From the NCBI GenBank assembly GCA_946623765.1, contig CAMORL010000019.1, positions 1 through 16,830 on the forward strand: a stretch of DNA of 16,830 bases, read 5' to 3'. Positions 1,358 through 16,302 of the stretch are shown here, piece after piece. The notes under the pieces are model-generated. The model saw only the letters and a program-made list of their open reading frames with translations. It was not told the origin of the DNA and made no database searches. The stretch's first letter is position 1, and each line of letters starts with the position of its first letter. The translations under genes and the position numbers were made by a program. Source of the DNA: an uncultured Clostridia bacterium. GTDB lineage: Bacteria; Bacillota_A; Clostridia; Christensenellales; CAG-138.

Positions 1358-1396
1358 GGTTCATTCCTCCTGAATCGAATTGGTTGTTCGGGCGAG

Positions 1397-1414
1397 CATG
1401 ATTTGACAAACATG
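1397..1414. promoter_or_regulatory. Imperfect palindrome over the TetR -35 box, candidate operator
   Basis: The 18-bp sequence CATGATTTGACAAACATG has six of nine symmetric base pairs (CATG-N-TT-N4-AA-N-CATG) and encloses the -35 hexamer of the regulator's own promoter. That is the expected place for autorepression by a dimeric TetR protein. The right half is repeated at 14917-14928. Operator function is inference. Confidence 0.4.
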
Positions 1415-1432
1415 ACTCAACCGCGATATAAT
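1403..1432 (+). promoter_or_regulatory. Sigma-A type promoter of the tetR-like gene
   Basis: Consensus TTGACA (1403-1408) and consensus TATAAT (1427-1432) are separated by 18 bp. They lie 50-80 bp upstream of the regulator's start codon. Both hexamers are perfect, so the promoter should be strong unless it is repressed. Confidence 0.85.
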
Positions 1433-1481
1433 ACATATAAGACTATACATCTCCGCGCAGGCGGAAAAGAGGGTGATCGGC

Positions 1482-2126
1482 ATGGTCGAACAAAAGCAAA
1501 TGCAGGAAGCGATGCCCGCGAACGTCAGAGAGTCGGGCAAAACAGATCTGCGCAAGCACAAAACCAGAAGAGCGCTGGAAGAGGCTTTTTATGAGCTGTC
1601 CGAAACCATGTGGATCGAAGATATCACGGTCGGCGATCTGTGCGAAAAAGCCATGGTCCGCCGAGCGACGTTCTATAAGCACTTCGCGGATAAGTACGCA
1701 TTCTTTGCATACGTGATGAACAACATCCAGCGAAATACCAATCTGCAGCAGAACGCCGATCCGAGGGATATCACGATGGCGGAGTATTGCCTGAATATTT
1801 GCCGCAGCTATCTCAGAAACTATGAGGAGCATCCGAAGATGGTGAAGCGAATACTGAACAGCAAATCCCGTCAGCCGTACACGGACATTCTTGTGGCGCA
1901 GATCCGCAACGCGCTTCTCAAAAAAGCGGCGTTCGACCGCGAAAAGGGGATCGAAACGGAGATTGATGCACAGGTCATCGCGAGCTTCATTGCCGGCGCG
2001 CTGCCGTATGCGCTGACGTCCTATGAGACCGATCATCTCGCCGATATGGACGCCGATCGCTTCCTTTCGGAACTGCGCACGATCTTCGAACGGCTCTGCG
2101 TGAGTCATCCGATTGCAAAGGAATAA
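1482..2126 (+). CDS. TetR/AcrR-family transcriptional regulator, 214 aa
   Basis: The N-terminal helix-turn-helix domain spans roughly residues 25-72. It has the family pattern ITVGDLCEKAMVRRATFYKHFADK, which ends in the conserved FYxHFxxK of TetR proteins. The C-terminal domain of about 140 residues is helical and would bind a ligand and dimerise. I chose ATG at 1482 because AAGAGGG at 1467-1473 lies 8 bp upstream; a GTG at 1473 would overlap that site. The gene stands alone between two minus-strand SDR genes and has its own strong promoter. It is the only complete regulator in the window, so it is the first candidate to control the flanking SDRs and the catabolic operon that starts at 3179. 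Whether it represses or activates cannot be read from the sequence. Confidence 0.9.
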   Translation: MVEQKQMQEAMPANVRESGKTDLRKHKTRRALEEAFYELSETMWIEDITVGDLCEKAMVRRATFYKHFADKYAFFAYVMNNIQRNTNLQQNADPRDITMAEYCLNICRSYLRNYEEHPKMVKRILNSKSRQPYTDILVAQIRNALLKKAAFDREKGIETEIDAQVIASFIAGALPYALTSYETDHLADMDADRFLSELRTIFERLCVSHPIAKE

Positions 2127-2139
2127 TCCCTGCTGTTCA

Positions 2140-2177
2140 AGAGCTGCCCGACGAACCGCCGGACGGCTCTTTCGTTT
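2140..2177. terminator. Hairpin between convergent tetR-like and SDR genes, probable bidirectional terminator
   Basis: The arms 2140-2150 and 2160-2170 (AGAGCTGCCCG / CGGACGGCTCT) pair over 11 positions with one G-U and one mismatch, around a 9-base loop. On the plus strand TTTCGTTT follows. It lies 14 bp after the regulator's stop codon and about 14 bp beyond the stop of the minus-strand SDR. Confidence 0.65.
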
Positions 2178-2190
2178 GCTGCGGAAGAGA

Positions 2191-2928
2191 TCAGGTGAAC
2201 ATGCCGCCGTTGACCGGAAGCTCGATGCCGGTCACGAACCGTGAATCGTCGCATGCCAGAAACTGCACCGCGCCTGCGAGCTCGTCCGCCGTTCCCATGC
2301 GGCGCATGGGAATCATGCGGAGGATTGTCTGAGAAAGCGCTTCCGGGATCCCGTTCATCATATCGGTTTCGATGAAGCAGGGAGAGACGGCGTTGACGGT
2401 GATTCCTTTTGCGGCAAGCTCGCGCGCAAGCGTCTTGGTCAGCCCCAGGATCGCTGCCTTGGACGCCGAGTAGTTGGCTTGTCCGACATTGCCGTGCGCG
2501 GCGGAGGAGGAAATGTTGATGATTTTTCCGTATCCGGAAGCGATCATGCCCGGAACGACTTCGGCGGTGCAGTAATAGGTGCCGTTCAGATTCGTGCGCA
2601 GGACTTTATCCCATTGATCTTCAGACATGTTCACGAACAAAGCGTCGCGGCAGATGCCCGCGTTGTTGACCAGAATGTCGATGCGGCCGTAAGCTTGCGC
2701 CGTTTGCTCCGCGCAGCGTCTGACGTTTTCCCGGTCGGAAACGTCGCAGCGGAACGCAAGAACACGGCCGCCCGGATAGAGCGCGGCGGTTTCCTTTGCC
2801 GCAGCTTCGTCATAGTCCCAGATCGCCACGCCCGCCGCGCCTTCCGCAACGAAACGCTTTACAACGGCTGCGCCGATTCCGCGCGCGCCGCCGGTCACAA
2901 CGGCATATCTGCCTTTGAGATCGCTCAT
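2191..2928 (-). CDS. FabG-like short-chain dehydrogenase/reductase, probably NAD(H)-preferring, 245 aa
   Basis: This classical SDR has a length typical of FabG or acetoacetyl-CoA reductase. It shows TGGARGIG at residues 12-19, NNAG at 88-91, catalytic S140, and Y153/K157 in the YxxxK motif. The end of the second beta strand reads AIWDYD, with Asp38 where NAD-dependent SDRs carry an acidic residue, so NAD(H) is more likely than NADP(H). The C-terminus has the usual DDSRFVTGxxLPVNGG signature. A strong site (GGAGGAG) lies 7 bp before ATG. It is transcribed divergently from the catabolic operon, and the paired operator between them suggests co-regulation. Plausible roles are 3-hydroxyacid or 3-hydroxyacyl dehydrogenase in the same pathway, or reduction of a cyclic diketone or phenol. 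The sequence does not decide between them. Confidence 0.9.
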   Translation of the reverse strand: MSDLKGRYAVVTGGARGIGAAVVKRFVAEGAAGVAIWDYDEAAAKETAALYPGGRVLAFRCDVSDRENVRRCAEQTAQAYGRIDILVNNAGICRDALFVNMSEDQWDKVLRTNLNGTYYCTAEVVPGMIASGYGKIINISSSAAHGNVGQANYSASKAAILGLTKTLARELAAKGITVNAVSPCFIETDMMNGIPEALSQTILRMIPMRRMGTADELAGAVQFLACDDSRFVTGIELPVNGGMFT

Positions 2929-2963
2929 AAAACACTCCTCCGAATGTATTTTTATCCGATACC

Positions 2964-2993
2964 ATTATAGCGCAGACAGCATGGAACGGGCAA
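2964..2993 (-). promoter_or_regulatory. Promoter of the FabG-like SDR gene
   Basis: On the minus strand a perfect TATAAT (2969-2964) is preceded, after 18 bp, by TTGCCC (2993-2988), which matches the -35 consensus at 4 of 6 positions. It is about 35 bp upstream of the start codon. The inverted repeat at 3013-3054 begins 20 bp further upstream. Confidence 0.65.
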
Positions 2994-3012
2994 TGCACAG
3001 TGTAAAGAAGGT

Positions 3013-3054
3013 GTCAAATAATTGACATTATTCGGATATTGTCAATTATTTGAC
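3013..3054. promoter_or_regulatory. Perfect 14-bp inverted repeat, paired operator in the divergent control region
   Basis: GTCAAATAATTGAC (3013-3026) is followed after 14 bp by its exact reverse complement GTCAATTATTTGAC (3041-3054). Each arm is itself a dyad, GTCAA-N4-TTGAC, so the element could hold two protein dimers whose centres are 28 bp apart. The outer edges are each exactly 20 bp from a divergent -35 box (2993 on the minus side, 3074 on the plus side). Placement upstream of both promoters fits a shared activator or a DNA-looping repressor better than simple promoter occlusion. The cognate protein is not shown by the sequence; the TetR-like protein at 1482 and the AraC-like protein at the right edge are candidates. 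Confidence 0.75.
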
Positions 3055-3073
3055 GGGAAAAGAATACTGTACG

Positions 3074-3102
3074 TTGCGGCAATACACGGTGCAATTTATA
3101 AT
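3074..3102 (+). promoter_or_regulatory. Promoter of the catabolic operon
   Basis: A perfect TATAAT (3097-3102) is preceded by TTGCGG (3074-3079) at the ideal 17-bp spacing. The weak -35 box (3 of 6) behind a perfect -10 box fits dependence on an activator bound at the upstream repeat. It predicts a 5' leader of about 70 bases, AT-rich and without an obvious riboswitch fold. Confidence 0.6.
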
Positions 3103-3178
3103 TTTATTGTACAAATATATACATAATATTTGAATAAATGCGTGATTTTTTCATTTTTATCAAAAGGAGCCGAACCCT

Positions 3179-3958
3179 GTGAAACTCATTGATTTAAGCG
3201 TAACGACCGTTTCGGATCTGCCGGTTGAACCGGAAGGACAGATCGCAAAAATCTATTACATCGACCACGGCAGCGACGTTTCCATTGATTCGACGCTGAA
3301 GAGCTTTCCGGGCATCACCCGCGAGGATCTTCCGGACGGATACGGCTGGGCGTCGGAGTTTGCCGCGTTCACGACACACACCGGAACGCATATGGACGCG
3401 CCGCTGCATTTCCATCCGACGATGAACCACGGAGAGCCTGCATGGTCGATCGATCAATTCCCGCTGGAATGGGGTATGGGCGACGGCGTCATGTTCGACT
3501 TTTCCGATAAGCCGGACGGGTATCTGCTCACGAGCAGGGATTACATCGAATACCTTGACCGCGTGGGCTACAAGCTGAAACCCGGCGATATTGTGCTGGT
3601 GCATACCAATGCGCACGAAGCATGGGGCACTTCCGATTATTATAAAAAAGGATGCGGAACAGGCAGAGAAGGCACGCTGTGGCTTGCGTCGCAGGGAATT
3701 CATCTCGTCGGTACGGATGCGTGGAGCTGGGATCCGCCGCTGTTTACCGAAGCGGAACGGTTCAAGGCGACCGGCGATCGCAGCGTGATCTGGGAAGGAC
3801 ATAAGGCGGGCATGGACTGCTGCTATTTCCAGATGGAAAAACTCGTCAATCTGGACAAGCTGCCGCCGTTCGGATTCCGGTTCATCGGCTTCCCGATCAA
3901 GATCGACCGCGGCAGTGCGGGATGGGTCAGACCCGTAGCAATTATAGACGAAGACTGA
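3179..3958 (+). CDS. Cyclase-family (PF04199) metal-dependent hydrolase, 259 aa
   Basis: The protein carries the family's metal motif HTGTHMDAPLHF at residues 67-78 (His67, His71, Asp73 and His77 are likely ligands or catalytic). A second conserved stretch, GTDAWSWDPP, follows around residue 180. Known members include kynurenine formamidase and isatin hydrolase. As I recall, the Mn-dependent dihydrophloroglucinol cyclohydrolase of gut anaerobes also belongs here. All of these hydrolyse an amide, enol or cyclic ketone bond. The start is GTG at 3179 with AGGAG 9 bp upstream; no in-frame ATG competes. It is the first gene of the operon and lies 13 bp before the beta-keto acid cleavage enzyme. 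That order suggests it produces a linear beta-keto or hydroxy-keto acid by ring opening, which is inference. No signal peptide is present, so it is cytoplasmic. Confidence 0.85.
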   Translation: MKLIDLSVTTVSDLPVEPEGQIAKIYYIDHGSDVSIDSTLKSFPGITREDLPDGYGWASEFAAFTTHTGTHMDAPLHFHPTMNHGEPAWSIDQFPLEWGMGDGVMFDFSDKPDGYLLTSRDYIEYLDRVGYKLKPGDIVLVHTNAHEAWGTSDYYKKGCGTGREGTLWLASQGIHLVGTDAWSWDPPLFTEAERFKATGDRSVIWEGHKAGMDCCYFQMEKLVNLDKLPPFGFRFIGFPIKIDRGSAGWVRPVAIIDED

Positions 3959-3971
3959 GGAGGATGAAGCA

Positions 3972-4814
3972 ATGGCAACCAAAACAATCATTTCCTGCGC
4001 CATGACCGGAACGGGTACGCCGAAGAGCAAGAACCCGGCATTGCCGACGACCCCGCAAGAGATCGCGGAAGATGTGTATCGCGTCTGGAAAGCAGGCGCG
4101 GCGATCGTGCATCTGCACATGCGCGAGGACAATCAGATGCCCACGATGGATGCGGAACGCTTCCGCGAGACGATCCGTCTCATCCGCGCATATGAGGACT
4201 GCGACGTAATCATCAACTGCACATCCTCAGGCTCCGCGGGACTCGTTGCGCCCGAAAAACGGATGGAACATTTCGAAACGATCCCGGATATCGAGATCGG
4301 TTCGTTCGACGCGGGCACGATCAACTGGGACTGCGCGGGCATCTTTCTGAACGACCCGCCGTTTCTTGCCAAGCTTGCGGAATGCATGGAGAGAAATCAT
4401 GTCAAGCCGGAAATCGAGCTGTTCGATACCGGCATGATCGCGAACATGAAGCATTACATCAAGACCGGCATGCTGAAGGAGCCGGTGTGGTGTCAGCTCG
4501 TTATGAACGTGCTCGGCGGCGCTGCAGGCACGGTGGACAATCTCGTGCATCTCGTCCGTCAGCTGCCGGAAGGCGCGATGTGGTCCTGCACGGGCATCGG
4601 ACAATCGCACCTGCCGCTGATGTTCACCACGCTTGCGCTCGGCGGACATCTGCGCGTCGGTCTCGAGGACAACCTTTACTATGCGCGCGGCGTGAAAGCC
4701 ACAAACGAGATGCTCGTTGCCCGCGCGGCGCGTGTGGTCCGTGAATACGGAAACGAACCGGCGACGCCCGCGGAAGCGCGAGAGATGCTGGGACTTCCGC
4801 AGCTTGTCAGGTAA
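3972..4814 (+). CDS. Beta-keto acid cleavage enzyme (BKACE / DUF849), 280 aa
   Basis: BKACE enzymes react a beta-keto acid with acetyl-CoA to give acetoacetate and a new acyl-CoA, using zinc held by two histidines and a glutamate. Here HLHMRED gives His47 and His49, and GGHLRVGLEDN gives Arg228, Glu232 and Asp233, matching the zinc ligands and catalytic acid of the founder enzyme Kce (3-keto-5-aminohexanoate cleavage). The early loop reads AMTGTGT where Kce, as I recall, has AITGAET. The Kce glutamate said to bind the substrate amino group is therefore Gly15 here, which argues against the lysine-fermentation substrate. AGGAGG lies just upstream of ATG. The neighbours (cyclase-family hydrolase, CoA-transferase, thiolases) fit a catabolic beta-keto acid route. 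Triacetate (3,5-dioxohexanoate) is one attractive substrate. Confidence 0.9.
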   Translation: MATKTIISCAMTGTGTPKSKNPALPTTPQEIAEDVYRVWKAGAAIVHLHMREDNQMPTMDAERFRETIRLIRAYEDCDVIINCTSSGSAGLVAPEKRMEHFETIPDIEIGSFDAGTINWDCAGIFLNDPPFLAKLAECMERNHVKPEIELFDTGMIANMKHYIKTGMLKEPVWCQLVMNVLGGAAGTVDNLVHLVRQLPEGAMWSCTGIGQSHLPLMFTTLALGGHLRVGLEDNLYYARGVKATNEMLVARAARVVREYGNEPATPAEAREMLGLPQLVR

Positions 4815-4820
4815 ACCCGC

Positions 4821-6035
4821 ATGGAAGAGAGGGAACTGACGCTTTCCGGCTATACCGTCGTCGATTTTTCCACGGTCGTTGCAGCGCCTTCCGCGGCGCG
4901 CGTGCTTGCGGATATGGGCGCGAGGGTCATCAAGGTTGAAACGCATACCGGCGATACGACCCGCTATCAGGATGCAATGCCGACGCTGAAACCCGAATCC
5001 TACGCGTTTACGAACTGCAATTCCAATAAGGCGAGCGTGTGCATCAACATCAAGACCGAAGGCGGAAAAGAGGCTTTTTTGCGGCTGCTCGAAACCGCAG
5101 ACGTGCTTGTTACCAACATTCGTTACAAAAGCCTTGTGCGCGCCGGACTGGACTACGAAACGCTCAAGGAACGGTTTCCGCGGCTTGTATACGCGCATTT
5201 TTGCGGATACGGCTATAAGGGACCGGACGTCGATCTGCCGGGCTATGACATGTCTGGCTTCTGGAGCAGAAGCGGCGCACTGCTGGACGGACACCTCGAC
5301 GATTCAAGACGGCTTTACGAGCCTGCCTACGGCATGGGAGATCTGTTCTGCGCCGGGTATTTCACGGCGGGCATCCTTGCGGCGCTGCTCGGACGCGCAT
5401 CGACCGGGCACGGCACGATGGTCAGCACATCGCTTTTGCATTCGGGCGTGTGGGCAAACGGCAGAAACATCATGCCGGCATCGGAAACCGTCGGCGACGT
5501 CGTGCCGCTGCCGGAGAAATGGAACTACAACATGTTCTATCGCGCCTATCGCTGCAGCGACGGAAAGTGGCTGTGCCTCGCGTTCAACTATGTGCAGCAT
5601 TTCAAGCTTGCCTGCGACGTGTTCGGATTGGACGACATCCGCGACGATCCGCGCTATCAGACGCAGGGCGCGCTGCGCTATTACGAGGTGGCGGAGGAAC
5701 TTGCGCTGCGGCTGGAACGCATCATCGCGCAAAAGCCGCGCGAGCACTGGATGCGCGAACTTCGCGCAAGGGACATGGTGTATGCGCCGGTTCTGAGCGG
5801 AGCGGAGGTCAGCCGGGATCCGCAGGTGCTCGAGAACGGTTTTTTGGAGCCGGTCATGTTTGCAAACGGAAAAGAGATGCTGATTCCGAGCATTCCGGTG
5901 CAGTTTTCCGATTATGCGATTCGTCCGGCAAAGCCCGGCGCGGCGCTCGGCGCAGACACGCACGAAGTGCTCAAAAACGCAGGCTATACGGAGGAACAGA
6001 TTTCCGCGCTCGCTGCCGACGGCAGTGTGCGATGA
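4821..6035 (+). CDS. Family III CoA-transferase (CaiB/BaiF/formyl-CoA transferase type), 404 aa
   Basis: The N-terminal segment LSGYTVVDFSTVVAAPSAARVLADMGARVIKVE (residues 8-40) is the CoA-binding Rossmann-like start of this family. The stretch YEPAYGMGDLFCAGYFTAGILAALLGR (166-192) contains Asp174, at the place of the aspartate that forms the acyl anhydride intermediate. Length is normal for the family. Such enzymes move CoA between carboxylic acids without free intermediates, for example for oxalate, carnitine, bile acids or aryl-propionates. The gene starts only 6 bp after the preceding stop and has a weak ribosome site (CAGGT), so translation is probably coupled. It may activate the acid released by the two upstream enzymes, or acetoacetate itself, for the thiolases further down. 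The actual acid is unknown. Confidence 0.9.
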   Translation: MEERELTLSGYTVVDFSTVVAAPSAARVLADMGARVIKVETHTGDTTRYQDAMPTLKPESYAFTNCNSNKASVCINIKTEGGKEAFLRLLETADVLVTNIRYKSLVRAGLDYETLKERFPRLVYAHFCGYGYKGPDVDLPGYDMSGFWSRSGALLDGHLDDSRRLYEPAYGMGDLFCAGYFTAGILAALLGRASTGHGTMVSTSLLHSGVWANGRNIMPASETVGDVVPLPEKWNYNMFYRAYRCSDGKWLCLAFNYVQHFKLACDVFGLDDIRDDPRYQTQGALRYYEVAEELALRLERIIAQKPREHWMRELRARDMVYAPVLSGAEVSRDPQVLENGFLEPVMFANGKEMLIPSIPVQFSDYAIRPAKPGAALGADTHEVLKNAGYTEEQISALAADGSVR

Positions 6036-6073
6036 AATAACATCGAAGACAATCAGGAAGGAGATCAAACACA

Positions 6074-7603
6074 ATGAAGAAGATGGTAACCATGTTCGCT
6101 CTGCTGCTGGCAGTTCTGATGCTGTTCGCGGCTTGCAGCGGCAACAAGACGGAAGCGCAGAAGGGTCCGCGTACGGACATCAATCTGCAGCTGTATCAGG
6201 AGCCGACGCATCTGGATCCGCATTACAGCACCAGCACCTATGACATGGCGGTCATGTATCAGATTTACGACAATCTGTTCGAGATCGTCAACGGCGACTA
6301 CGAGAATCCGCAGCCTTCTCTTTGCGAGAGCTTCGAAGTGAATCCCGACTCCACCGAGTACATTTTCCACATCCGTCAGAATGTCAAGTGGCAGAACGGC
6401 GATATCCTCAATGCGGACGACGTCGTGTTCTCGCTGAACCGCATGCGTGCTTCCGCAGTCACCCAGATGCGCGTCAGCTTCATCGCGGACGTTCAGAAGG
6501 TGGACGATTACACCGTCAAAGTCACCAACCAGTACAGCGCACCGCGTCTTCCCGCGCTGCTTGCAACGGCGAGCATGAGCATCGTGAACAAGAAGCTGGT
6601 CGAACAGTACGGCGACAAAGCACGCGAAACGATCGTCGGCACCGGCGCATATAAGCTGGACCGCTGGGAACCGGGTCAGGGCATGGTTCTGACTGCGTAT
6701 GAAGAAGGCTGGCGCGGTTCGCCCAAGATCAAGACGATCAACTACACCGTTATGAGCGATATGACCGCGGCGCGTGTTGCGCTGCAGAACGGCGACCTCG
6801 ATATGTACGTCTGCACCACGATCGAGGACAAGAACTTCTTTATGGACAACGCAAATTATGTCGGCGGTCCGGTCACGATCTCCAGCACCACTTCTCTGAT
6901 GATGAACACCAAGAAGGGCGTTCTGGCAAACGAGAAGGTCCGTGAAGCAATCGAATACGCGATCGACGCAAATCAGGTCAATCTCGCATGCACCGGCGGT
7001 CTTGCGGACACGGCGATCTCGATCTTCCCGTCCGACGCGCAGGGCTTTACCACCGAAGTTCCGCAGTATGAGTACAACGTGGAAAAGGCAAAGGAACTGC
7101 TGAAGGAAGCCGGCTATAACGGCGAACCGATCGGTCTGATGTACAGCACCACCGCAGCGAAGACCACTGCATGGGCGACCAGTGTACAGGGCTTTTTGAC
7201 CGCGGCAGGCATCAATGTGCGCATGGACGGCGTTGATACCGCAACGGCATATTCCCGCGCGGCAACGTATGACTACGATATGTGCTACTACGAGTACACC
7301 GTCAGCCTCGCGAACCCCGCAACGGCTATCTGGGGTCTGTTCCGCTCCGACGGCGCATATAACGCGGCGCAGTACACCACCGAAGACCTCGATCTCCTGT
7401 GCCTCGGCGCAATCGCGGCGCCCGATGCGGCAACGCAGCGCGGCTATCTCGAGACGATCAACAAGATGACGCTCGACGCATGCCTGTATGTTCCGATGTT
7501 CCAGAACAACACCTACTATTTCGCAACGAAGGGTCTCACCGGCATGGATCTTGAACCGCTGTGCGGTTGGTCCAAGGTTTGCTACGCTTCCTGGGAAGAG
7601 TAA
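6074..7603 (+). CDS. ABC transporter substrate-binding lipoprotein, family 5 (Dpp/Opp type), 509 aa
   Basis: A lipoprotein signal is clear: MKK, a hydrophobic stretch, and the lipobox LFAAC with Cys21 as the lipidated residue. The mature protein should be anchored outside the membrane. The body has family 5 landmarks, including [18 protein letters not shown] near residue 50 and [18 protein letters not shown] near residue 195. The length is normal. Family 5 proteins bind peptides, but also nickel chelates, oligosaccharides, opines and other compounds, so the ligand cannot be named. Because the gene lies inside a keto-acid catabolic operon rather than among peptidases, the ligand is probably the compound degraded. 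AAGGAG precedes ATG by about 11 bp. A strong hairpin follows the stop codon and may raise its mRNA level above that of the permease genes. Confidence 0.93.
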
Positions 7604-7616
7604 TTGATGCAAAAAA

Positions 7617-7650
7617 GAGCTCCGGCGTGCCGCAAAGCACGCCGGAGTTT
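7617..7650 (+). terminator. Intercistronic hairpin after the binding-protein gene (attenuating terminator or mRNA stabiliser)
   Basis: An 11-bp perfect stem (7620-7630 with 7637-7647, CTCCGGCGTGC and complement) has a 6-base loop and is extended by two G-U pairs and one A-U pair. It is followed by only three T, then C and G. It lies 14 bp after the binding-protein stop and 75 bp before the next start. Partial termination or 3' end protection would give more binding protein than permease, as in many importer operons. Confidence 0.75.
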
Positions 7651-7724
7651 CGGGACGATTCCGATTGACTGCAACCTCGGGCGATCCGACTGCCCGAACG
7701 ACTCTGCGGAATGGAGAACACATT

Positions 7725-8708
7725 ATGCTGAAATACGTGATCAAACGCATCCTGTTGATGATACCGACCATGCTGATCGTTACGGCACTGGTATTTCTGC
7801 TTATCAACATCACGCCTGTGGAACCCGCACGCATCATTCTCGGAACCGACGTATCGGAGGAACAGGTTGAAAATCTGAACCGTGAACTCGGTTTCTATGA
7901 TCCGCTGCCGGTGCGGTATTTCAACTGGCTGAAAAACGCGGTACAGGGAAATTTCGGGAATTCCTACTACACAAACCGAGGTGTTATGGAAGAAATCATG
8001 TCCCGGTTCCCGTATACGCTGAAACTGTCACTTTTGAGTCTCGGACTGTCTATCCTGATCGGCATCCCGCTCGGCGTGTTCTGCGCCACAAAGCAGTATT
8101 CCATCGGCGATCATATCCTTTCGGTTCTGTCGATGGGCCTCGGCGCGATTCCGATCTTCTGGCTGGGACTGCTGCTGCTTCTGGAGTTTTCCTCCAAGCT
8201 CGGCTGGTTCCCTGCGGGCGGCGTCACTAAGGGAGGATGGCTTGCGTGGGTTTTGCCGACGATTACGCTTGCGCTCGGCAATACCGCAAGCTATCTCCGG
8301 TATACCCGCTCCGTCATGCTGGACAGCATCCGTCAGGACTATATCCGCACTGCCCGCGCAAAGGGCTGTTCGGAAGCGGCGGTCACATGGAAACATGCGT
8401 TCCGCAATTCAACGCTTACGCTGATCACGATCACCGGCACAACGCTGTCTGCGCTGATGGGCGGCGCGATCGTCGTGGAACAGGTGTTCACGATCCCCGG
8501 ACTGGGCGTGATGATCGTTACCGCCATTCAGCGAAAGGATATTCCCGAGGTCATGGGCGCGCTGGTGTTCCTTGCGCTGTTCTTCCTGATCATGATGCTG
8601 ATCGTTGACCTTTTATATGCCGTCGTCGATCCGCGTCTCAAAGGACGCTTCGCCGTGAGCGCCAAAAAGCCCAAAAAGCATGCCGCGGCAGGGAAGAAGG
8701 TGGCATAA
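7725..8708 (+). CDS. ABC transporter permease, DppB/OppB type, 327 aa
   Basis: The first transmembrane helix starts at MLKYVIKRILLMIPTMLIV, followed by the extracytoplasmic segment with FNWLKNAVQGNFGNSYYTNRGVME typical of DppB proteins. The EAA-type cytoplasmic loop GCSEAAVTWKHAFRNS (about residues 212-227) contacts the ATPases. About six membrane segments are visible. I chose ATG at 7725 because GGAGA lies 8 bp upstream and translation then begins at the conserved membrane helix. A TTG 20 codons earlier would add a non-conserved tail and has no ribosome site. It forms the membrane channel with the next gene product, driven by the two ATPases downstream. The stop codon abuts the next ATG. Confidence 0.93.
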   Translation: MLKYVIKRILLMIPTMLIVTALVFLLINITPVEPARIILGTDVSEEQVENLNRELGFYDPLPVRYFNWLKNAVQGNFGNSYYTNRGVMEEIMSRFPYTLKLSLLSLGLSILIGIPLGVFCATKQYSIGDHILSVLSMGLGAIPIFWLGLLLLLEFSSKLGWFPAGGVTKGGWLAWVLPTITLALGNTASYLRYTRSVMLDSIRQDYIRTARAKGCSEAAVTWKHAFRNSTLTLITITGTTLSALMGGAIVVEQVFTIPGLGVMIVTAIQRKDIPEVMGALVFLALFFLIMMLIVDLLYAVVDPRLKGRFAVSAKKPKKHAAAGKKVA

Positions 8709-9575
8709 ATGAAAAAGACAAGAGGCAACAGCATCTGGAAGGAGCTTTTCCTCCGGCTGATCCATAACAAACGCGCGATCTTCGCTATGGCGATCCTTTT
8801 GCTGCTGATCCTGATCGTGATCTTTGCGGATCTGATCATTCCGTATTCGAAGGCGGTCGATCAGAACATCCTGGACCGTTTCACGCGTCCGAACAGCAGC
8901 CATTGGTTCGGAACGGATAAGTACGGCAGAGACCAGTTTGCCCGAACGATCCACGGCACGCGCATCTCGCTTCTGATCGGCTTCGGATCCGCTACCATCG
9001 CAGCGATCCTCGGCACGACGATCGGCGTAGCGGCGGCGTATTTCGGCGGCAAGGTGGACAACATCATCTGCCGCATCCTCGATATCTGGATGGCGATGCC
9101 GTCGCTTTTGGTGACGCTTGCGATCATCGCAGGCCTGGGGGTAGGCATACCGCAGACGATCTTTGCGCTTGCGTTCGGCGCAACGCCCGGATTTGCGAGA
9201 ACGCTGCGCGCGGCGGCACTGAGCGTTGCAAGTCAGGAGTTCATCGAGTCTTCGGTGGCGCAGGGCGCATCCCACGGACGGATCATGCTGCACGATCTCG
9301 TGCCGAACGTGATCTCGCAGATACTGATCCAGTTTACCATGAACGTTTCATACATGATTCTGCTCGGCTCCACGCTGTCGTTCCTCGGTCTCGGCGCACA
9401 GCCGCCGACGCCGGAATGGGGCGCAATGCTTGCGGAAGGTCTGCAGGATTATCAGTTCTATCCGTATCTGGTCATGTTCCCGGGCATGTTCCTTGCGCTG
9501 ACAGCGCTTGCGATCAACATTTTCGGCGACGCGCTGCGCGACGGCTTTGACCCGAAACTGAAAGGGAGGGCATGA
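8709..9575 (+). CDS. ABC transporter permease, DppC/OppC type, 288 aa
   Basis: This is the second permease of the importer. A first membrane helix at about residues 23-45 is followed by the DppC hallmark HWFGTDKYGRDQFARTIHGTRISLLIG. It then has further helices and an EAA loop, EFIESSVAQGASHGRIMLHDLVPN (about residues 178-201). The C-terminal GDALRDGFDPKLKGR tail is also characteristic. The start codon directly follows the stop of the previous gene (TAAATG), with only AAGGTGG as ribosome site, so the two are translationally coupled. The stop overlaps the next gene's first possible start as ATGA. Length and topology are normal. Confidence 0.94.
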   Translation: MKKTRGNSIWKELFLRLIHNKRAIFAMAILLLLILIVIFADLIIPYSKAVDQNILDRFTRPNSSHWFGTDKYGRDQFARTIHGTRISLLIGFGSATIAAILGTTIGVAAAYFGGKVDNIICRILDIWMAMPSLLVTLAIIAGLGVGIPQTIFALAFGATPGFARTLRAAALSVASQEFIESSVAQGASHGRIMLHDLVPNVISQILIQFTMNVSYMILLGSTLSFLGLGAQPPTPEWGAMLAEGLQDYQFYPYLVMFPGMFLALTALAINIFGDALRDGFDPKLKGRA

Positions 9576-9577
9576 GC

Positions 9578-10579
9578 ATGAGCGAAAAACTGCTGGAAAT
9601 CAAGGACCTTAAGGTTCGTTACGTGGTCGGAAAGGAAGTGTCCGAAGCCGTCAACGGCATATCGCTGACGCTGAACAAGGGTGAAACGCTCGGGCTCGTC
9701 GGCGAGACCGGCGCAGGCAAAACGACGACCGCGCTTTCGATCATGAACATGCTCCCGCAGTACGTTTCCCGCGTGGAAGGCGAGATCCTGTTCCACGGTA
9801 AAAACGTGCTGAAGATGAAAAACCACGAGCTGCGAAAGATTCGCGGCAAGCAGATCTCCATGGTGTTTCAGGACCCGATGACGAGCCTGAACCCGGTGTA
9901 TCGCGTGGGAGAACAGATCGGCGAGGTGCTTTCGCTGCACGAAGGCAAAATGCCGAAGGAAGAACTCAGAAAGCGCGTCGGCGAGATCCTCGAAATGGTC
10001 GGCATTCCTGCGGCGAGGCAGGACGAATATCCGCACCAGTTTTCCGGCGGCATGAAGCAGCGCGTCATCATCGCGATTGCGATCGCGTGCCGTCCCGAGC
10101 TTCTCATCGCCGATGAGCCGACGACCGCGCTGGACGTTACGATCCAGGCGCAGGTGCTGGACATGATGCAGGAACTGCGGGATTCTCTGAACTCCTCGAT
10201 TCTGATGATCACGCACGATCTCGGCATCGTTGCAAGCTTTTGCGACAAGGTCGCGATCATGTATGCCGGCGAGATCGTCGAATACGGTACGCTCGAAGAT
10301 ATCTTTGACCGGACGAAGGCGCATCATCCGTACACGGAAGGACTGTTCAACGCGATCCCGAACCTGAACGTGATCACACCGCGTTTGAATCCGATCCACG
10401 GACTTACGCCGGATCCGACCGAACTGCCGAAGGGGTGTAAATTCCATCCGCGCTGTCCGTATGCGACCGACGCGTGCAGGGAAGGCGCTGTTCCGGTACT
10501 GACCGAAGGCGAGCACAGCATCATGTGCCGTCGGGTGAAGGACCGTTTTAAGCAGGCAGAAAAGGAGGAACAGGCATGA
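9578..10579 (+). CDS. ABC transporter ATP-binding protein, DppD/OppD type, 333 aa
   Basis: This is the first of two ATPases powering the importer. The motifs are complete: Walker A GETGAGKT (residues 42-49), Q-loop Gln98, signature FSGGM (155-159), Walker B LLIADE with Asp179/Glu180, and H-loop His213. The C-terminal extension has the oligopeptide-transporter cysteine motif GCKFHPRCPYATDAC. I prefer ATG at 9578 because GGGAGG at 9564-9569 is 8 bp upstream. The ATG at 9572, which overlaps the previous stop, would be only 2 bp from it; the difference is two residues. The gene overlaps the next one by ATGA at 10576-10579, so both ATPases should be made in equal amounts. Confidence 0.94.
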   Translation: MSEKLLEIKDLKVRYVVGKEVSEAVNGISLTLNKGETLGLVGETGAGKTTTALSIMNMLPQYVSRVEGEILFHGKNVLKMKNHELRKIRGKQISMVFQDPMTSLNPVYRVGEQIGEVLSLHEGKMPKEELRKRVGEILEMVGIPAARQDEYPHQFSGGMKQRVIIAIAIACRPELLIADEPTTALDVTIQAQVLDMMQELRDSLNSSILMITHDLGIVASFCDKVAIMYAGEIVEYGTLEDIFDRTKAHHPYTEGLFNAIPNLNVITPRLNPIHGLTPDPTELPKGCKFHPRCPYATDACREGAVPVLTEGEHSIMCRRVKDRFKQAEKEEQA

Positions 10580-11550
10580 GCGTTCCCGTGATCGAGTGTA
10601 TCGAATTAAAAAAGTATTTTGACACGCCGTTCGGCAAGCTGCACGCAGTCGACAACGTCAGCTTCAAACTGGAGGCGCACAAGACGCTCGGCATCGTCGG
10701 CGAATCCGGCTGCGGCAAGTCTACCCTCGGACGCACGATCCTCGGACTTCATAAGGCGACGTCCGGCAAGGTGCTGTTCGACGGACGTGAGATTCAGGAT
10801 CTTCCGGCGAAGCAGATGAAGCCGCTGCGCAAGGAGATGCAGATCATCTTTCAGGATCCGTATTCCTCGCTGAACCCGCGCGATACGGTTTCGCAGATCA
10901 TCGCGCAGCCGATCCGCATTCAGGGCATTCTGAAAACGCCCTCCGAGATCGACGCGCGCGTGCAGGAACTGATGGACATCGTGGGACTCGGCAAGCGCTT
11001 TGCGAACACGTATCCGCATGAAATGGACGGCGGACGCAGACAGCGCGTCGGCATTGCCCGCGCGCTTGCGATGAATCCGAAGTTCATCGTTTGCGACGAG
11101 CCGGTTTCCGCGCTGGACGTTTCGATTCAGGCGCAGATTCTGAATCTGATGATGGATCTGCAGGATCAGATGGGATTGACCTATCTGTTCATCACGCACA
11201 ATCTTGCGGTTGTAAAGCACATTTCCGACGACATCGCCGTGATGTATCTCGGACAGATGGTCGAAAAGTCGGAGACGGAAGCGCTGTTCAAAGACCCGCT
11301 GCATCCGTATACGCAGGCGCTTCTGAAGGCGATCCCGATTCCGGAGATCGGACACCGCAACAGCATCAAAAATGTGCTGAAGGGCGAGGTTACCTCACCG
11401 ATCGAGCCGAAGCCCGGCTGCCGGTTCGCACCGCGCTGTCCCTATGCGACGGATGCGTGCCGCAGCGTGGAACCGCAGCTCAAGGAAGTAAAGAAAGGGC
11501 ACTTCGTCGCGTGTCATCTGTTCGACGACGCGAAGGAATGCACTGAATGA
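10576..11550 (+). CDS. ABC transporter ATP-binding protein, DppF/OppF type, with DGGRR signature, 324 aa
   Basis: This is the second importer ATPase. Walker A is GESGCGKS (residues 42-49), Q-loop Gln93, Walker B FIVCDE with Asp174/Glu175, and the C-terminal cysteine motif GCRFAPRCPYATDAC. The ABC signature, normally LSGGQ-like, reads EMDGGRRQR, with Asp151 in place of serine. The same change occurs in a group of clostridial and thermophile OppF-like proteins as I recall, so it is probably a lineage variant rather than damage. In heterodimeric ATPases it could make one ATP site weaker. AGGAGG is well placed before ATG. The stop overlaps an ATG at 11547, but the real start of the following thiolase is the GTG at 11580. 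Confidence 0.93.
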   Translation: MSVPVIECIELKKYFDTPFGKLHAVDNVSFKLEAHKTLGIVGESGCGKSTLGRTILGLHKATSGKVLFDGREIQDLPAKQMKPLRKEMQIIFQDPYSSLNPRDTVSQIIAQPIRIQGILKTPSEIDARVQELMDIVGLGKRFANTYPHEMDGGRRQRVGIARALAMNPKFIVCDEPVSALDVSIQAQILNLMMDLQDQMGLTYLFITHNLAVVKHISDDIAVMYLGQMVEKSETEALFKDPLHPYTQALLKAIPIPEIGHRNSIKNVLKGEVTSPIEPKPGCRFAPRCPYATDACRSVEPQLKEVKKGHFVACHLFDDAKECTE

Positions 11551-11579
11551 TATGGAAAGACGGAAAGGAGAAAACTGAC

Positions 11580-12779
11580 GTGCGAGAAGTAGTTTTTGTG
11601 GACGGAGCACGCTCCGCATTCTGCAATATGGGCGGAGGGCTCAGAGATCTGTCCGCCACCGAGATCGCCGGATTTGTCATCCGGGGGCTTGTGGAAAAGA
11701 GCGAGATTCTGAAGCGCGGCAAGGTGGACGCCCTGCTTGCGGGAAACGCGCTGCGCGACATGAAATCCATGGATCCGGCGCGCTATGCGGCATTGGCCGC
11801 GGGACTTCCGGAGGAAACGGAAGCGCATTACGTTGAAATGCAGTGCGGCAGTGCGATCACCGCGATCAACCATGCTGCGGCAATGATCGGCAGCGGATAC
11901 GGGGACGTCATGATCGTCGGCGGTATGGAATCGTACAGCACCATGTGCATCGACTTTTCCATGAACATCCCGCCGTATACGCTGACTCCGCCTATCCCGA
12001 TCACGCCGAGACTGGCACCGCAGAAGGAAGAGGACATCCCCATGACGATGGTCAGCGACAAGATGGCAAAGGTCTGGGGCGTCACCCGCGAAGAAGCGGA
12101 CGCATACGCGCTGCGCTCCCAGAAGCGGCTTGCGGCGGCATATGAAAAGGGTATCACGGGAAACGAGATCATCCCGTTCACGATCCCCGCAACGCGTAAA
12201 ACGCCCGAGATCGTCATCAATCGCGACGAGTTTCCGCGCCCCGATTCCACGCTCGAAGGGCTTGCAAAGCTTCGCTGCGTGCATCCGGACGGCGTGACCA
12301 CCGCAGGCAATGCGTCCGGTCGAAACGACGGCGCGGCATTCGTGCTGATGATGAGCGCGGAAAAGGCGAAGGAACTGGGCTATACGCCCTATGCCCGCTG
12401 GATCATGGGCGCGGACGTCGGCGTACAGCCGAGCCTGATGGGCATCGGACCTGCGCGGTCCAATCTCATCGCGCTGAAGCGTGCGGGACTTTCCGTCGGC
12501 GACATGGACGTCATCGAATGCAACGAAGCGTTTGCGGCACAGCAGCTTTCCGTCATCCGGGAAATGGAAAAACAGGCGGGCGTCACGATCGACCAAAACA
12601 AGTGGAATCCGAACGGCGGAGCGATCGCGATCGGACATCCGAACGGCGCATCCGGCGCGCGCATCTGCATGTTCGCCATGAAGGAACTGGAGCGCACGGG
12701 CGGACGGTTCGGTCTGTTCAGCTCCTGCTGCGGCGGCGGACACGGCACGACAACAATCATTGAAAATCTGAGAAAGTAA
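11580..12779 (+). CDS. Thiolase (acetyl-CoA acyltransferase), first of a tandem pair, 399 aa
   Basis: This thiolase should cleave a beta-ketoacyl-CoA with free CoA, or run in reverse. The nucleophile Cys89 lies in VEMQCGSAIT, the same position as in well-studied thiolases. NEAFAAQQ, His353 in GGAIAIGHPNGASG, and Cys383 in CCGGGHG complete the active site. I chose GTG at 11580, with AAAGGAG 9 bp upstream. It gives exactly 399 aa, the same as its neighbour, and begins at the conserved REVVFVDGARS strand. An ATG at 11547 would add 11 non-conserved residues. The protein is very similar to the next one throughout and shares a 42-nt identical DNA block with it. The substrate is unknown, but acetoacetyl-CoA or a slightly longer ketoacyl-CoA fits the pathway. 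Confidence 0.93.
   Translation: MREVVFVDGARSAFCNMGGGLRDLSATEIAGFVIRGLVEKSEILKRGKVDALLAGNALRDMKSMDPARYAALAAGLPEETEAHYVEMQCGSAITAINHAAAMIGSGYGDVMIVGGMESYSTMCIDFSMNIPPYTLTPPIPITPRLAPQKEEDIPMTMVSDKMAKVWGVTREEADAYALRSQKRLAAAYEKGITGNEIIPFTIPATRKTPEIVINRDEFPRPDSTLEGLAKLRCVHPDGVTTAGNASGRNDGAAFVLMMSAEKAKELGYTPYARWIMGADVGVQPSLMGIGPARSNLIALKRAGLSVGDMDVIECNEAFAAQQLSVIREMEKQAGVTIDQNKWNPNGGAIAIGHPNGASGARICMFAMKELERTGGRFGLFSSCCGGGHGTTTIIENLRK
12278..12319 (+). repeat. 42-nt block identical between the two thiolase genes (copy 1)
   Basis: This stretch is identical to 13487-13528 and encodes RVHPDGVTTAGNASG-type residues next to the active site. All codon third positions match across the block, while the flanks differ at many silent sites. 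That suggests local gene conversion or strong selection after tandem duplication. Confidence 0.85.
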
Positions 12780-12791
12780 GGAGGAGCGGAT

Positions 12792-13991
12792 ATGGATATC
12801 GTCATCGTAGACAGCGTACGCACACCTTTCGGCAACTTCGGCGGCACGCTGAAGCAGTTTACGGCGGCGGATCTCGGCACGATTGCCGTGAACGCCCTTC
12901 TGAAAAAATCCGGCATCCTCGAACGCGGTACGGTCGACCATCTGGTCTGCGGCTGTGCGCTCGGCGACGCCAACACCAAAGCGCTCGCGCGCTACATCGT
13001 TCTGCAGTCCGAACTGCCCACGGAAACGTCCGGTACGTTCGTCGAGATGCAGTGCGGCAGCGCGATCACGAGCCTCAATCATACCGCGTGGCTGATGCAG
13101 GCAGGTATGGCGGAAGTCGCGATCGTCGGCGGCATGGAATCGTACAGCACGCTGACCGCAAAGTTCCCGATGTCGCGTCCGCAGTACGCACTGATCCCGC
13201 CGTATCCCATCGCGCAGGGTCTTACGCCCAATGCAGAACGCAATGTGGACATGATTACCGTCAGCGACAAGATGGCGGTCAAGTGGAATATCTCCCGCAC
13301 GGAAGCGGACGAATACGCGCTGCGCTCGCAGCAGCGTCTGGCGGCGGCGTATGAAACCGGCATCGCCGGCGCGGACATGGTCGGCGTCACGATCCCCGCA
13401 ACGCGCAAAACGCCGGAATACGTCGTGGACAAGGACGAATTCCCGCGTCCGAACTCCACCATGGAAGGTCTTTCAAAGCTTCGTCCCGTGCATCCGGACG
13501 GCGTGACCACCGCAGGCAATGCGTCCGGGCGCAATGACGGCGCGGCGTTCCTGCTCGTCATGACCGCCGAAAAAGCAAAGGAACTCGGTTATACGCCGAT
13601 CGCCCGCTGGGTCGGCGGCGCGCACTGCGGCTGCCGGGAAGATTATATGGGCATCGGACCTGCGCTGTCGAACCTCAAAGCTTTGAAGCTTGCCGGGCTT
13701 ACGGTCGACGATCTTGATGTGATCGAGTGCAATGAAGCGTTTGCCGCGCAGCAGCTTTCCGTCATCAGGGAGATGGAAGCGCAGACCGGCAGGACGATCG
13801 ATCAGGGCAAGTGGAACCCGAACGGCGGCGCGATCGCGATCGGTCATCCGAACGGCGCTTCCGGCGCGCGCATCGCGATGTTCGCCATGAAGGAACTGAT
13901 CCGAAAAGGCGGTCGCTACGGTGTGATCTCGTCCTGCTGCGGCGGCGGTCACGGAACCACGGCGATTCTCGAAAATCTGATGAGATCATAA
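12792..13991 (+). CDS. Thiolase (acetyl-CoA acyltransferase), second of a tandem pair, 399 aa
   Basis: This is the second thiolase, 12 bp after the first, with AAGGAGG before ATG. The active-site set is intact: Cys88 in VEMQCGSAIT, NEAFAAQQ, His352 in GGAIAIGHPNGASG, and Cys382 in CCGGGHG. The protein is collinear with the first thiolase, and the C-terminal halves are nearly the same by eye. They differ most in the first 80 residues and around residues 115-145, where NFGGTLKQFTAADLG and the PMSRPQYALIPPYP loop replace different sequence. The loop lies in the region that covers the active site in thiolases, so the two may accept different acyl chains. They could also assemble as mixed tetramers. 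Which one makes or cleaves acetoacetyl-CoA cannot be decided here. Confidence 0.93.
   Translation: MDIVIVDSVRTPFGNFGGTLKQFTAADLGTIAVNALLKKSGILERGTVDHLVCGCALGDANTKALARYIVLQSELPTETSGTFVEMQCGSAITSLNHTAWLMQAGMAEVAIVGGMESYSTLTAKFPMSRPQYALIPPYPIAQGLTPNAERNVDMITVSDKMAVKWNISRTEADEYALRSQQRLAAAYETGIAGADMVGVTIPATRKTPEYVVDKDEFPRPNSTMEGLSKLRPVHPDGVTTAGNASGRNDGAAFLLVMTAEKAKELGYTPIARWVGGAHCGCREDYMGIGPALSNLKALKLAGLTVDDLDVIECNEAFAAQQLSVIREMEAQTGRTIDQGKWNPNGGAIAIGHPNGASGARIAMFAMKELIRKGGRYGVISSCCGGGHGTTAILENLMRS
13487..13528 (+). repeat. 42-nt block identical between the two thiolase genes (copy 2)
   Basis: This is an identical copy of 12278-12319 at the equivalent codons of the second thiolase gene; see copy 1 for its meaning. 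Confidence 0.85.
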
Positions 13992-14003
13992 GGAGGAAAC
14001 AGT

Positions 14004-14858
14004 ATGGAAATCAAAAACGTTTGTGTCATCGGCGGCGGACAGATGGGTCGTCAGATCGCGCTCTGTGCGGCGATTTACGGCTATCGTGTCACGGTTTATG
14101 ATTCGTTCCCGGGCGTTCCGGAAAAGGTGCGCGCATGGGAGGAGGAATACCTTGCGGGACGCATCCAGAAGGGCAGAATGACGGAGGAAGCGGTTGCGGA
14201 AACAAAGGCGCGCTTCGCGGTCACCGACGATCTCAATGCCGCTGCTGCGGACGCGGATCTCGTCATCGAAGCGATCGTCGAAGTCTACGAAGCAAAGGCG
14301 AAGCTGTTCCGTGAGCTCGAGCCGGTCATCCGTCCGGATACGATCGTCGCGACCAATTCGAGTTATATGGTCTCCTCGATGTTCAAGGATTGCTTCAAGG
14401 ATCCGTCCAGATTGTGCAACGCGCATTTCTATAATCCCGCGCTTGTCATGAAATTCGTCGAAGTCGTGCAGGGACCGCACACGAGCGAGGAGACAGGCAA
14501 GACCGTTTATGAATTCTGCAAATCGATCGGCAAGATCCCGGTACTGATGAAAAAGGAAATCTCCGGCTTTGCGGCGAACCGCATCACCGGTGTCGTCAAC
14601 CAGGAAGCGCGTTATCTTGTGCAGAACGGTTATCTGACGCCGGAAGAGGTCGACATCGCGTGCGAAGAAGGTCTCAAGTATCCGATGGGACCGTTCCGTC
14701 TCATGGACCTGACCGGCATCGATCTTTCCTACGACCTGATGAAGGCGATGTATAAGAGCAGCGGCGTCAAACCCGACTGCTACGATCTCATCGAATCCAT
14801 GGTCAAAGAGGGCAAGCTCGGCCGCAAGAGCGGTCACGGCTTTTACGACTACGTCTGA
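14004..14858 (+). CDS. 3-hydroxyacyl-CoA dehydrogenase (HBD/PaaH type), 284 aa
   Basis: The NAD-binding fold opens with VIGGGQMG (residues 8-15), and Asp33 ends the second strand, indicating NAD. NSS (118-120), His141 in AHFYNP, Glu153 in KFVEVV and Asn192 in GFAANR reproduce the substrate-binding and catalytic set (His-Glu dyad) of 3-hydroxybutyryl-CoA dehydrogenase. The C-terminus has the usual GRKSGHGFYDY ending, and the length of 284 aa is standard. The enzyme would oxidise an (S)-3-hydroxyacyl-CoA to the ketoacyl-CoA used by the two thiolases just upstream, or work in the reducing direction toward butyrate. No enoyl-CoA hydratase or acyl-CoA dehydrogenase is in the window, so oxidation of a hydroxy acid produced by the pathway is equally likely. 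It is the last gene of the operon, and a strong terminator follows. Confidence 0.93.
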   Translation: MEIKNVCVIGGGQMGRQIALCAAIYGYRVTVYDSFPGVPEKVRAWEEEYLAGRIQKGRMTEEAVAETKARFAVTDDLNAAAADADLVIEAIVEVYEAKAKLFRELEPVIRPDTIVATNSSYMVSSMFKDCFKDPSRLCNAHFYNPALVMKFVEVVQGPHTSEETGKTVYEFCKSIGKIPVLMKKEISGFAANRITGVVNQEARYLVQNGYLTPEEVDIACEEGLKYPMGPFRLMDLTGIDLSYDLMKAMYKSSGVKPDCYDLIESMVKEGKLGRKSGHGFYDYV

Positions 14859-14875
14859 TTCCTTCCTAACGTATA

Positions 14876-14914
14876 GAGCCGCAGGTTTTCCATCGGACCT
14901 GCGGCTCGCTTTTT
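14876..14914 (+). terminator. Intrinsic terminator at the end of the catabolic operon
   Basis: A perfect 11-bp stem (14876-14886 with 14897-14907, GAGCCGCAGGT and complement), a 10-base loop and GC followed by five T (14910-14914) lie 17 bp after the last stop codon of the operon. A new promoter begins immediately after it. Confidence 0.92.
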
Positions 14915-14916
14915 GC

Positions 14917-14945
14917 TTGACAAACATGCAAAGAATATATATTTT
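14917..14945 (+). promoter_or_regulatory. Promoter of the nitroreductase-fragment/esterase unit, with shared TTGACAAACATG
   Basis: A perfect TTGACA (14917-14922) is followed by an AT-rich stretch offering TATTTT at 17 bp (14940-14945) or TATATT at 15 bp (14938-14943). The 12 bases 14917-14928 equal those at the promoter of the TetR-like gene (1403-1414), which may mark a common regulator half-site. Confidence 0.55.
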
Positions 14946-14979
14946 ATAGAAAAGCGGCAGGAAGGATGGATAGGTATCT

Positions 14980-15243
14980 ATGAACAAAGACCTGATTTCC
15001 GAACGGAAGAGCGTCCGGACCTTTGACGGAAGAACGCTGAACGAAGCAGATCGGGAAGCGCTGACACGCTTTATCGAGGAAGCGGAAAACCCGTTTTCCG
15101 TACCGGTAACGTTTCGGATTCTGAACGCGAAGGAGCACGGTCTGAACAGTCCCGGCATCGGCGGACATTATGCGTTTGAAGACCCGGGCATTGCGACACC
15201 GGAAAATACGCACTACATCGTTTCGTTTGTGACAGGTGCATAA
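14980..15243 (+). pseudogene. Truncated nitroreductase-like protein, 87 aa (probable remnant)
   Basis: The first 60 or so residues look like the start of a nitroreductase of the TM1586 type: an ISERKSVRTFDGRTL flavin-binding start, then AENPFSVPVTFRILNAKEHGLNSPG. Full proteins of this group are about 210-250 aa, but this frame stops after 87 aa. The closing NTHYIVSFVTGA looks like a natural C-terminus, so an in-frame internal deletion joining both ends is possible. The flavin-binding middle and C-terminal regions are absent, so it is unlikely to be an active enzyme. A long-spaced AGGAAGG (14 bp) precedes ATG. The stop codon overlaps the esterase start (TAATG), so its present role may be to support coupled translation of the esterase. 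A short functional protein cannot be excluded. Confidence 0.6.
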
Positions 15244-16193: not shown

Positions 16194-16195
16194 CC

Positions 16196-16229: not shown

Positions 16230-16302
16230 CTGCATATATTTGTTCAACGGATTCACTTGATACCCATTTAGCTGCAGAGGGGAGTTTTCGTCCGCTGCAA
16301 AG

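Follow-up and report, generated by a model that had tools for sequence, protein, structure and literature searches.

Which compound would be degraded by a locus that sets a cyclase-family hydrolase beside a beta-keto acid cleavage enzyme (BKACE), and is such a locus a variant of phloroglucinol fermentation, whose enzyme classes it carries? We address this question for 16,830 nt of an uncultured Clostridia bacterium (Christensenellales, CAG-138; GenBank assembly GCA_946623765.1, contig CAMORL010000019.1, positions 1 to 16,830), hereafter the window, in which a PF04199 hydrolase and a BKACE head a predicted operon that also encodes a CoA-transferase, an importer, two thiolases and a dehydrogenase, with two short-chain dehydrogenases/reductases (SDR1 and SDR2) upstream. 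Judging from sequence, we hold with about even confidence that this island is a catabolic cassette through which a ring compound would be imported, its ring hydrolysed and the resulting keto acid cut to acetyl-CoA. The proposal is built on gene content and order, intact motifs, the clade of the BKACE, its recurrent pairing with the hydrolase, the control region and purifying selection, all of which we observe; we infer each reaction of the route and the sequence in which they occur, as well as the metal and the class of substrate.

Comparison with the phloroglucinol pathway

The reference system is the pathway of Clostridium scatologenes, which consists of phloroglucinol reductase (PGR), dihydrophloroglucinol cyclohydrolase (DPGC), the dehydrogenase TfD and triacetate acetoacetate-lyase (TAL) (PMC10470551; this and the other papers cited here are drawn on in part). 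As controls we used loci from a class-wide search that carry the published gene set (L124-L128 first, then L184 and L185). Their hydrolases have Trp and Tyr exactly at the published positions of the DPGC substrate residues Trp20 and Tyr22 (PMC10470551), which is why we take all seven to be phloroglucinol loci. With queries supplied by L124 and L127 themselves, SDR, DPGC, BKACE, CtfAB and thiolase were each matched in 7/7 control loci and the dehydrogenase in 6/7, none being found in L126 within the stretch examined.

In a 28-row tree the window BKACE falls within the TAL clade, a 13-row set (98/99) that holds the BKACEs of phloroglucinol-type loci, on a long branch shared only with the nearest relative genome (G001). 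Of eleven positions compared with the five control TALs, ten agree (GHHTSSDERED vs. WHHTSSDERED; KCE reads EHHSGTNERED there), and the sole differing position is the place of KCE Glu14, the tail-specificity position, where the window has Gly15 and all five control rows have the Trp expected of a TAL. Among the best 120 homologues listed, this place holds 13 different residues (Gly in all of the 12 closest), and the other ten positions are the same as in the window in 114 of the 120; the profile score of the window BKACE is 284.5 bits against 382. Gly at the Trp/Glu specificity position points to an intermediate that is probably triacetate-like with a bulkier tail than triacetate. The initial annotation had likened the BKACE to the TAL of phloroglucinol fermentation; its clade agrees with this and speaks against a subfamily of unrelated substrate, and the loss of the specificity Trp does not.

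The hydrolase is a PF04199 member by its Pfam score, which lies above the gathering threshold, and by its metal motif, HxG[T/A]HxDxPxH in this family (PMC6117287), which is complete in the window as HxGTHxDxPxH (H67, G69, T70, H71, D73, P75, H77). It is not a DPGC, a candidate that we rejected on three grounds: a 50-row tree separates its 36-row clade (100/99) from the 7-row clade of the control hydrolases (100/99, with a warning of long branches near the latter), it is 32-36% identical to the control hydrolases (five loci), and Trp20 and Tyr22, present in 7/7 controls, are replaced by Glu17 and Glu19. Position 17 is Asp in 112 and Glu in 8 of 120 close homologues of the window hydrolase. Trp57, Trp184 and Lys221 are invariant in all 120, where 7/7 controls have Val, Leu and Asn, respectively.

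SDR1, which is transcribed divergently from the operon, had been likened to PGR. PGR is described with an NADPH-type cofactor turn TR(S/N) (PMC10470551); the control SDRs read TGR there rather than literally TR(S/N) (5/5 aligned), and SDR1 has Trp-Asp-Tyr at this place and is 28-36% identical to the control SDRs (five loci), so that we rejected SDR1 as a PGR. No chain named phloroglucinol reductase occurs among the best 60 of 693 PDB matches. SDR2, which the initial annotation did not name, has an NADP-type SSRN turn whose Arg falls in the TGR column; an NADPH-type reductase is therefore present and a reductive step conceivable, but SDR2 is only 25-29% identical to six control SDRs.

In TfD, Lys56 and Asn221 of HBD are lost and the catalytic residues are kept (PMC10470551). 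The window dehydrogenase, a member of the 3-hydroxyacyl-CoA dehydrogenase (HAD) family, likewise keeps the catalytic Ser, His and Asn; it has Lys for HBD Asn221 and the similar Arg for HBD Lys56, and it is 31-36% identical to four control dehydrogenases and 38% identical to HBD. By these residues and identities it appears intermediate between HBD and TfD.

Like the C. scatologenes pathway, the window brings together a PF04199 hydrolase, a TAL-clade BKACE, a HAD-family dehydrogenase, a thiolase and an SDR. Unlike that pathway, it draws its hydrolase and SDRs from other subfamilies, has Gly15 for TAL Trp16, and carries a family III CoA-transferase in place of CtfAB, a Dpp-type importer and two tandem thiolases (PMC10470551). 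A search with the query proteins gave no CtfAB match in the window. By its cleavage step the island appears to be kin to the phloroglucinol pathway, but not by ring opening or, as far as SDR1 goes, by reduction, and its substrate is probably not dihydrophloroglucinol. The initial annotation had read the locus as a phloroglucinol-like scheme: the motif and fold of the hydrolase and the clade of the BKACE make it reasonable to expect hydrolysis and then cleavage with acetyl-CoA, whereas SDR1 as a PGR and the hydrolase as a DPGC are not supported. The best-supported part of that annotation is its suggestion of a possibly new substrate.

A dehydrogenase 58% identical to the TfD of control locus L124 adjoins a BKACE 69% identical to the TAL of control locus L127 in one further locus (L183, genome G083); the 17 kb examined there gave no match to the hydrolase or to an SDR. 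In another (L187, G697), several HAD-type dehydrogenases, one of them ~47% identical to that of the window, lie with two SDRs, a thiolase and a BKACE that has Val at the specificity place; this, too, looks like a BKACE pathway that lacks the hydrolase.

Short loci that pair the hydrolase with a BKACE

Hydrolases of the window type lie near a BKACE in 13/80 kept GTDB loci, in 2/7 plasmid loci (7 loci out of 130 matched records) and in 5/8 phylum loci (8 out of 13 other than G001). We compared eight short loci: L013 (Enterococcus crotali), L015 (Selenomonadales), L016 (Zophobihabitans), L020 (Gilliamella), L029 (Entomohabitans), L167, L168 and L169, the last three being the same places as L158, L159 and L160, respectively; contig ends cut some loci (L029, L163 and L167). 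Each has a transporter and a hydrolase of the window subfamily (45-57% identity), with a BKACE adjoining the hydrolase or in its vicinity that falls in the TAL clade or just beside it. Their hydrolases have Asp17 in seven cases and an aligned Pro in one (L160, the locus of L169).

Six of the short-locus BKACEs belong to the 13-row TAL clade; the BKACE of L169 joins one set further out (14 rows, 97/94), followed by that of L168 (15 rows, 93/95). All eight are closer to the control TAL of L127 (55-68% identity) than the window BKACE is (46%), and the exact TAL residue, Trp, stands at the specificity place in only three of the eight (L015, L167 and L169), with Phe in L016, L020 and L029, Tyr in L013 and Val in L168. 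The control BKACE of L126 groups with that of L158 (96/95) and the BKACE of L013 with other controls (88/83, unstarred); by these groupings, short loci and phloroglucinol loci seem to share one BKACE enzyme.

The SDR and dehydrogenase queries, which matched control loci, matched in 0/8 short loci. Transporters are present in 8/8 and are of the GntP type (L013), MFS (L015, L016, L020, L029 and L168) or SSF (L167 and L169), where the window uses a Dpp-type importer. CtfAB homologues occur in three (L013, L015 and L029; 51-61% identical to those of a phloroglucinol locus), and thiolases are 52-61% identical in L013, L029 and L169 and 42% identical in L168. This composition suggests an uncharacterised short route that would hydrolyse, cleave and recycle acetoacetate. 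Compared with it, the window is a divergent relative, probably for a substrate with a larger tail.

At L168 (G733) the hydrolase and BKACE are followed by genes of the MFS (PF07690), thiolase, PTA_PTB and Acetate_kinase families and then, by eye, by two acyl-CoA dehydrogenase-like and two ETF subunit-like genes; together these might make up an entire fermentation that ends in butyrate-level products. A lone hydrolase of the subfamily (54% identity) lies on the Enterococcus faecium plasmid pDMEA1 from fermented soybean (L093 / L205), in a region that also holds cell-surface genes and a lytic polysaccharide monooxygenase.

Extent and control of the island

Every gene that the initial annotation had listed was found in the open reading frame (ORF) table and by Pfam, and the uninterrupted gene row of the predicted operon, with SDR1 divergent from a common control region, was confirmed by layout, gaps and twin palindromes; the unit itself proved larger than proposed (Table 1). 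Eleven plus-strand genes follow one another from 3179 to 14858 with intergenic gaps of -4 to 121 bp in the ORF table (dppB start set at 7725), the widest of which precedes dppB and contains a hairpin. The block that the window shares with G001, a different assembly from its own, has flanks that match on neither side; SDR2 and the TetR-type regulator belong to the unit because they lie inside it, and an alpha/beta hydrolase gene at 15243 lies outside because it has no match in the G001 stretch examined. Only G001 gave a strong hydrolase match among 23 genomes of the genus, many of them incomplete, and two further ones gave weak matches (E = 8.6e-8 and 6e-4); the left-flank gene encodes an iron-dependent alcohol dehydrogenase that three members of the genus carry at 92-93% identity. 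Given the shared block with unlike flanks, the flank genes kept in genus members and the rarity of the hydrolase in the genus, the block is a discrete, patchy island and not an accident of neighbouring genes.

Table 1. Features of the island, with positions in the window and the evidence for each.
Feature	Position	Strand	Evidence or remark
Whole island	403-14924		Block common to window and G001, 95.1% DNA identity
SDR2, short-chain dehydrogenase	485-1357	-	NADP-type SSRN turn; in conserved block
TetR-type regulator	1473-2126	+	TetR_N 22.0 bits, below cut-off 24; DhaS-like in NCBIfam, below cut-off
SDR1, FabG-like	2191-2928	-	Pfam adh_short_C2; acidic (NAD-type) beta2 turn
Twin 16-bp palindromes, operator-like (candidate)	3012-3027 and 3040-3055		Motif count vs. 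shuffles; kept in G001
PF04199 metal-dependent hydrolase, cyclase family	3179-3958	+	Pfam Cyclase 117.2 bits vs. gathering 23.1; isatin-hydrolase fold
BKACE, TAL clade	3972-4814	+	Pfam BKACE PF05853; Gly15 at tail-specificity position
Family III (CaiB-type) CoA-transferase	4821-6035	+	Pfam CoA_transf_3 (PF02515) 297.8 bits
Family 5 solute-binding protein	6074-7603	+	SBP_bac_5; lipobox-like start by eye
12-bp hairpin between binding-protein gene and dppB	7620-7647		Identical in G001
DppB-type permease	7725-8708	+	Domain matches
DppC-type permease	8709-9575	+	Domain matches
DppD-type ATPase	9572-10579	+	Domain matches (oligo_HPY)
DppF-type ATPase	10576-11550	+	Domain matches (oligo_HPY)
Thiolase 1	11547-12779	+	Thiolase_N/C; 64% identical to thiolase 2
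Thiolase 2	12792-13991	+	Thiolase_N/C; aligned Cys/His/Cys kept
3-Hydroxyacyl-CoA-dehydrogenase-family protein	14004-14858	+	Pfam 3HCDH_N/3HCDH
Terminator-like hairpin and T run, operon end	14876-14907	+	13 pairs

The starts of SDR1 and the hydrolase are divergent and 250 bp apart, with the palindromes between them; the palindrome has four matches over both strands at ≤3 mismatches, a number reached in 0/200 shuffles. The TetR-type protein is a candidate regulator of the island and the obvious candidate to bind both palindromes. Terminator-like sites number 24 in the region vs. 17.2 ± 4.3 in shuffles. Hairpins such as that before dppB are common where expression of a binding protein exceeds that of its permease.

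The importer is complete, with a binding protein, two permeases and two oligo_HPY ATPases; the binding protein has no close solved relative (best match 6tfq, 134.9 bits). The CoA-transferase belongs to family III, and the Asp of its GMGD motif aligns with an Asp of succinate-HMG CoA-transferase, which we take to be catalytic, as we do the Cys, His and Cys aligned in thiolase 2.

Comparison of 14 genes with G001 gave dN/dS of 0-0.076, that is, purifying selection. Along the block, dS to the nearest relative (L188) varies about tenfold (0.045-0.075 in dppBCDF, 0.57 in the BKACE and 0.53 in the dehydrogenase), a spread that suggests recombination inside the island. Beyond it on the right lie an Abhydrolase_3 gene (15243-16193) and an AraC regulator gene (16436-16807), the latter 91% identical in genus member G016.

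Proposed route, rival readings and significance

In the proposed cassette, a small polar ring compound or conjugate would enter through the Dpp-type importer, and its ring, a lactone or cyclic diketone, would be opened with water by the hydrolase as a Mn-type enzyme. A hydroxyl of the opened acid would then be oxidised by the 3-hydroxyacyl-type dehydrogenase, by the NAD-type SDR1 or by both, giving a beta-keto acid that the BKACE could exchange with acetyl-CoA for acetoacetate and an acyl-CoA. The family III CoA-transferase, in the place that CtfAB takes in some related loci, would activate acetoacetate or the product acid, and the two thiolases would yield acetyl-CoA by splitting acetoacetyl-CoA and one further 3-ketoacyl-CoA.

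Several observations weigh against this route. The commonest immediate neighbour of the hydrolase subfamily is an FAA_hydrolase gene (15 of the 89 neighbour proteins scanned, out of 120 candidate proteins and from 61 loci, with uncurated ORF calls), and in GTDB loci among L019-L092 such a gene often stands beside the hydrolase in place of a BKACE. The hydrolase may therefore do something other than open rings, such as hydrolyse an amide or an ester. The dehydrogenase retains MGP and the length of HBD and may simply act on 3-hydroxyacyl-CoA, the importer-family matches are named mostly for peptides and nickel, and identity to the controls (five loci) is only 38-42% for the thiolases and 46-50% for the BKACE. 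The counts of hydrolase-BKACE pairing are raw, with no background rate; the TAL clade does not include the BKACEs of 8 among the 13 linked GTDB loci (nine BKACEs), nor both plasmid BKACEs and that of L165, which speaks against generality.

An unlikely but credible rival is a deoxyribonate-like route, in which the hydrolase would open the lactone of a sugar acid or hydroxyalkanoate, SDR1 would oxidise its 3-hydroxyl, the BKACE would cleave the product and the remaining enzymes would recycle acetoacetate. The putative deoxyribonate operon encodes a lactonase, an SDR, a BKACE and two MFS proteins, and the recycling of acetoacetate is encoded outside it (PMC6365646); the window resembles it in its SDR, its BKACE, the class of a ring-opening hydrolase and acetoacetate recycling, and differs from a system with MFS transporters and a thiolase encoded elsewhere. 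The NAD-type turn of SDR1 and the control region that it has in common with the operon also fit. However, the available part of PMC6365646 does not state the family of the deoxyribonate lactonase and lacks the word 'cyclase', and the window BKACE sits in the TAL clade, the deoxyribonate BKACE being outside the comparison.

Unlikely, too, is that the hydrolase is an amidase or esterase of the kynurenine formamidase (KynB) or isatin hydrolase type, freeing from an imported conjugate an acid that the BKACE, thiolases and dehydrogenase would then degrade. Isatin hydrolase and KynB are among the characterised proteins nearest to it in fold, the PF04199 family has a known esterase member (PMC5341072), and the importer is of the peptide type. 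Against this, it scores 32.2 bits with the arylformamidase model TIGR03035 (NCBIfam, cut-off 223.05), far below the model in a comparison of profile scores with no KynB tree, which speaks against the tight grouping with kynurenine formamidases that was one of the refuting conditions of the initial annotation; the Pfam matches of the operon include no amine-handling family. Isatin hydrolases (PDB 4J0N, 5NNA and 5NMP) are 20-26% identical to the window hydrolase and, unlike their systems, the window has no indole or isatin gene set among its Pfam matches.

A more speculative and quite unlikely reading starts from the short loci: if their BKACE is a true TAL, and with no redox step found nearby, the hydrolase must deliver triacetate or something near it. 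Window-type PF04199 hydrolases would then be 2-pyrone lactonases, converting triacetic acid lactone to triacetate (3,5-dioxohexanoate), which TAL with thiolase and CtfAB would turn into acetyl-CoA, leaving reductase and dehydrogenase unneeded; the window would then be a divergent offshoot whose pyrone, 6-substituted, is larger or reduced, with the dehydrogenases acting on extra hydroxyls. To our knowledge, triacetate-lactonase (EC 3.1.1.38) lacks a sequence, and a literature search for it listed a single, unrelated paper; this reading, if true, would give it a gene.

That the island is the clostridial phloroglucinol pathway itself, with an SDR as PGR, the hydrolase as DPGC, the dehydrogenase as TfD and the BKACE as TAL, is highly improbable: the same enzyme classes stand together (PMC10470551), the BKACE is in the TAL clade and SDR2 has the Arg of an NADP-type turn, but the hydrolase belongs to another clade without the Trp and Tyr of DPGC, SDR1 lacks the TGR turn, SDR2 is distant from the control SDRs, the BKACE has exchanged Trp for Gly and CtfAB is unmatched in the window.

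If the catabolic cassette is real, it would represent a widespread branch of ring breakdown among gut bacteria, insect-gut genera included, that seems to have escaped notice. In this branch the triacetate lyase step of phloroglucinol fermentation would be reused, with its substrate coming from another ring-opening hydrolase and no reduction beforehand. Such a branch would caution against labelling every locus that pairs PF04199 with a BKACE as phloroglucinol degradation, and it would offer directly testable substrates. For the family, it would mean a radiation of BKACEs in which one specificity residue is free to vary on an almost fixed catalytic core.

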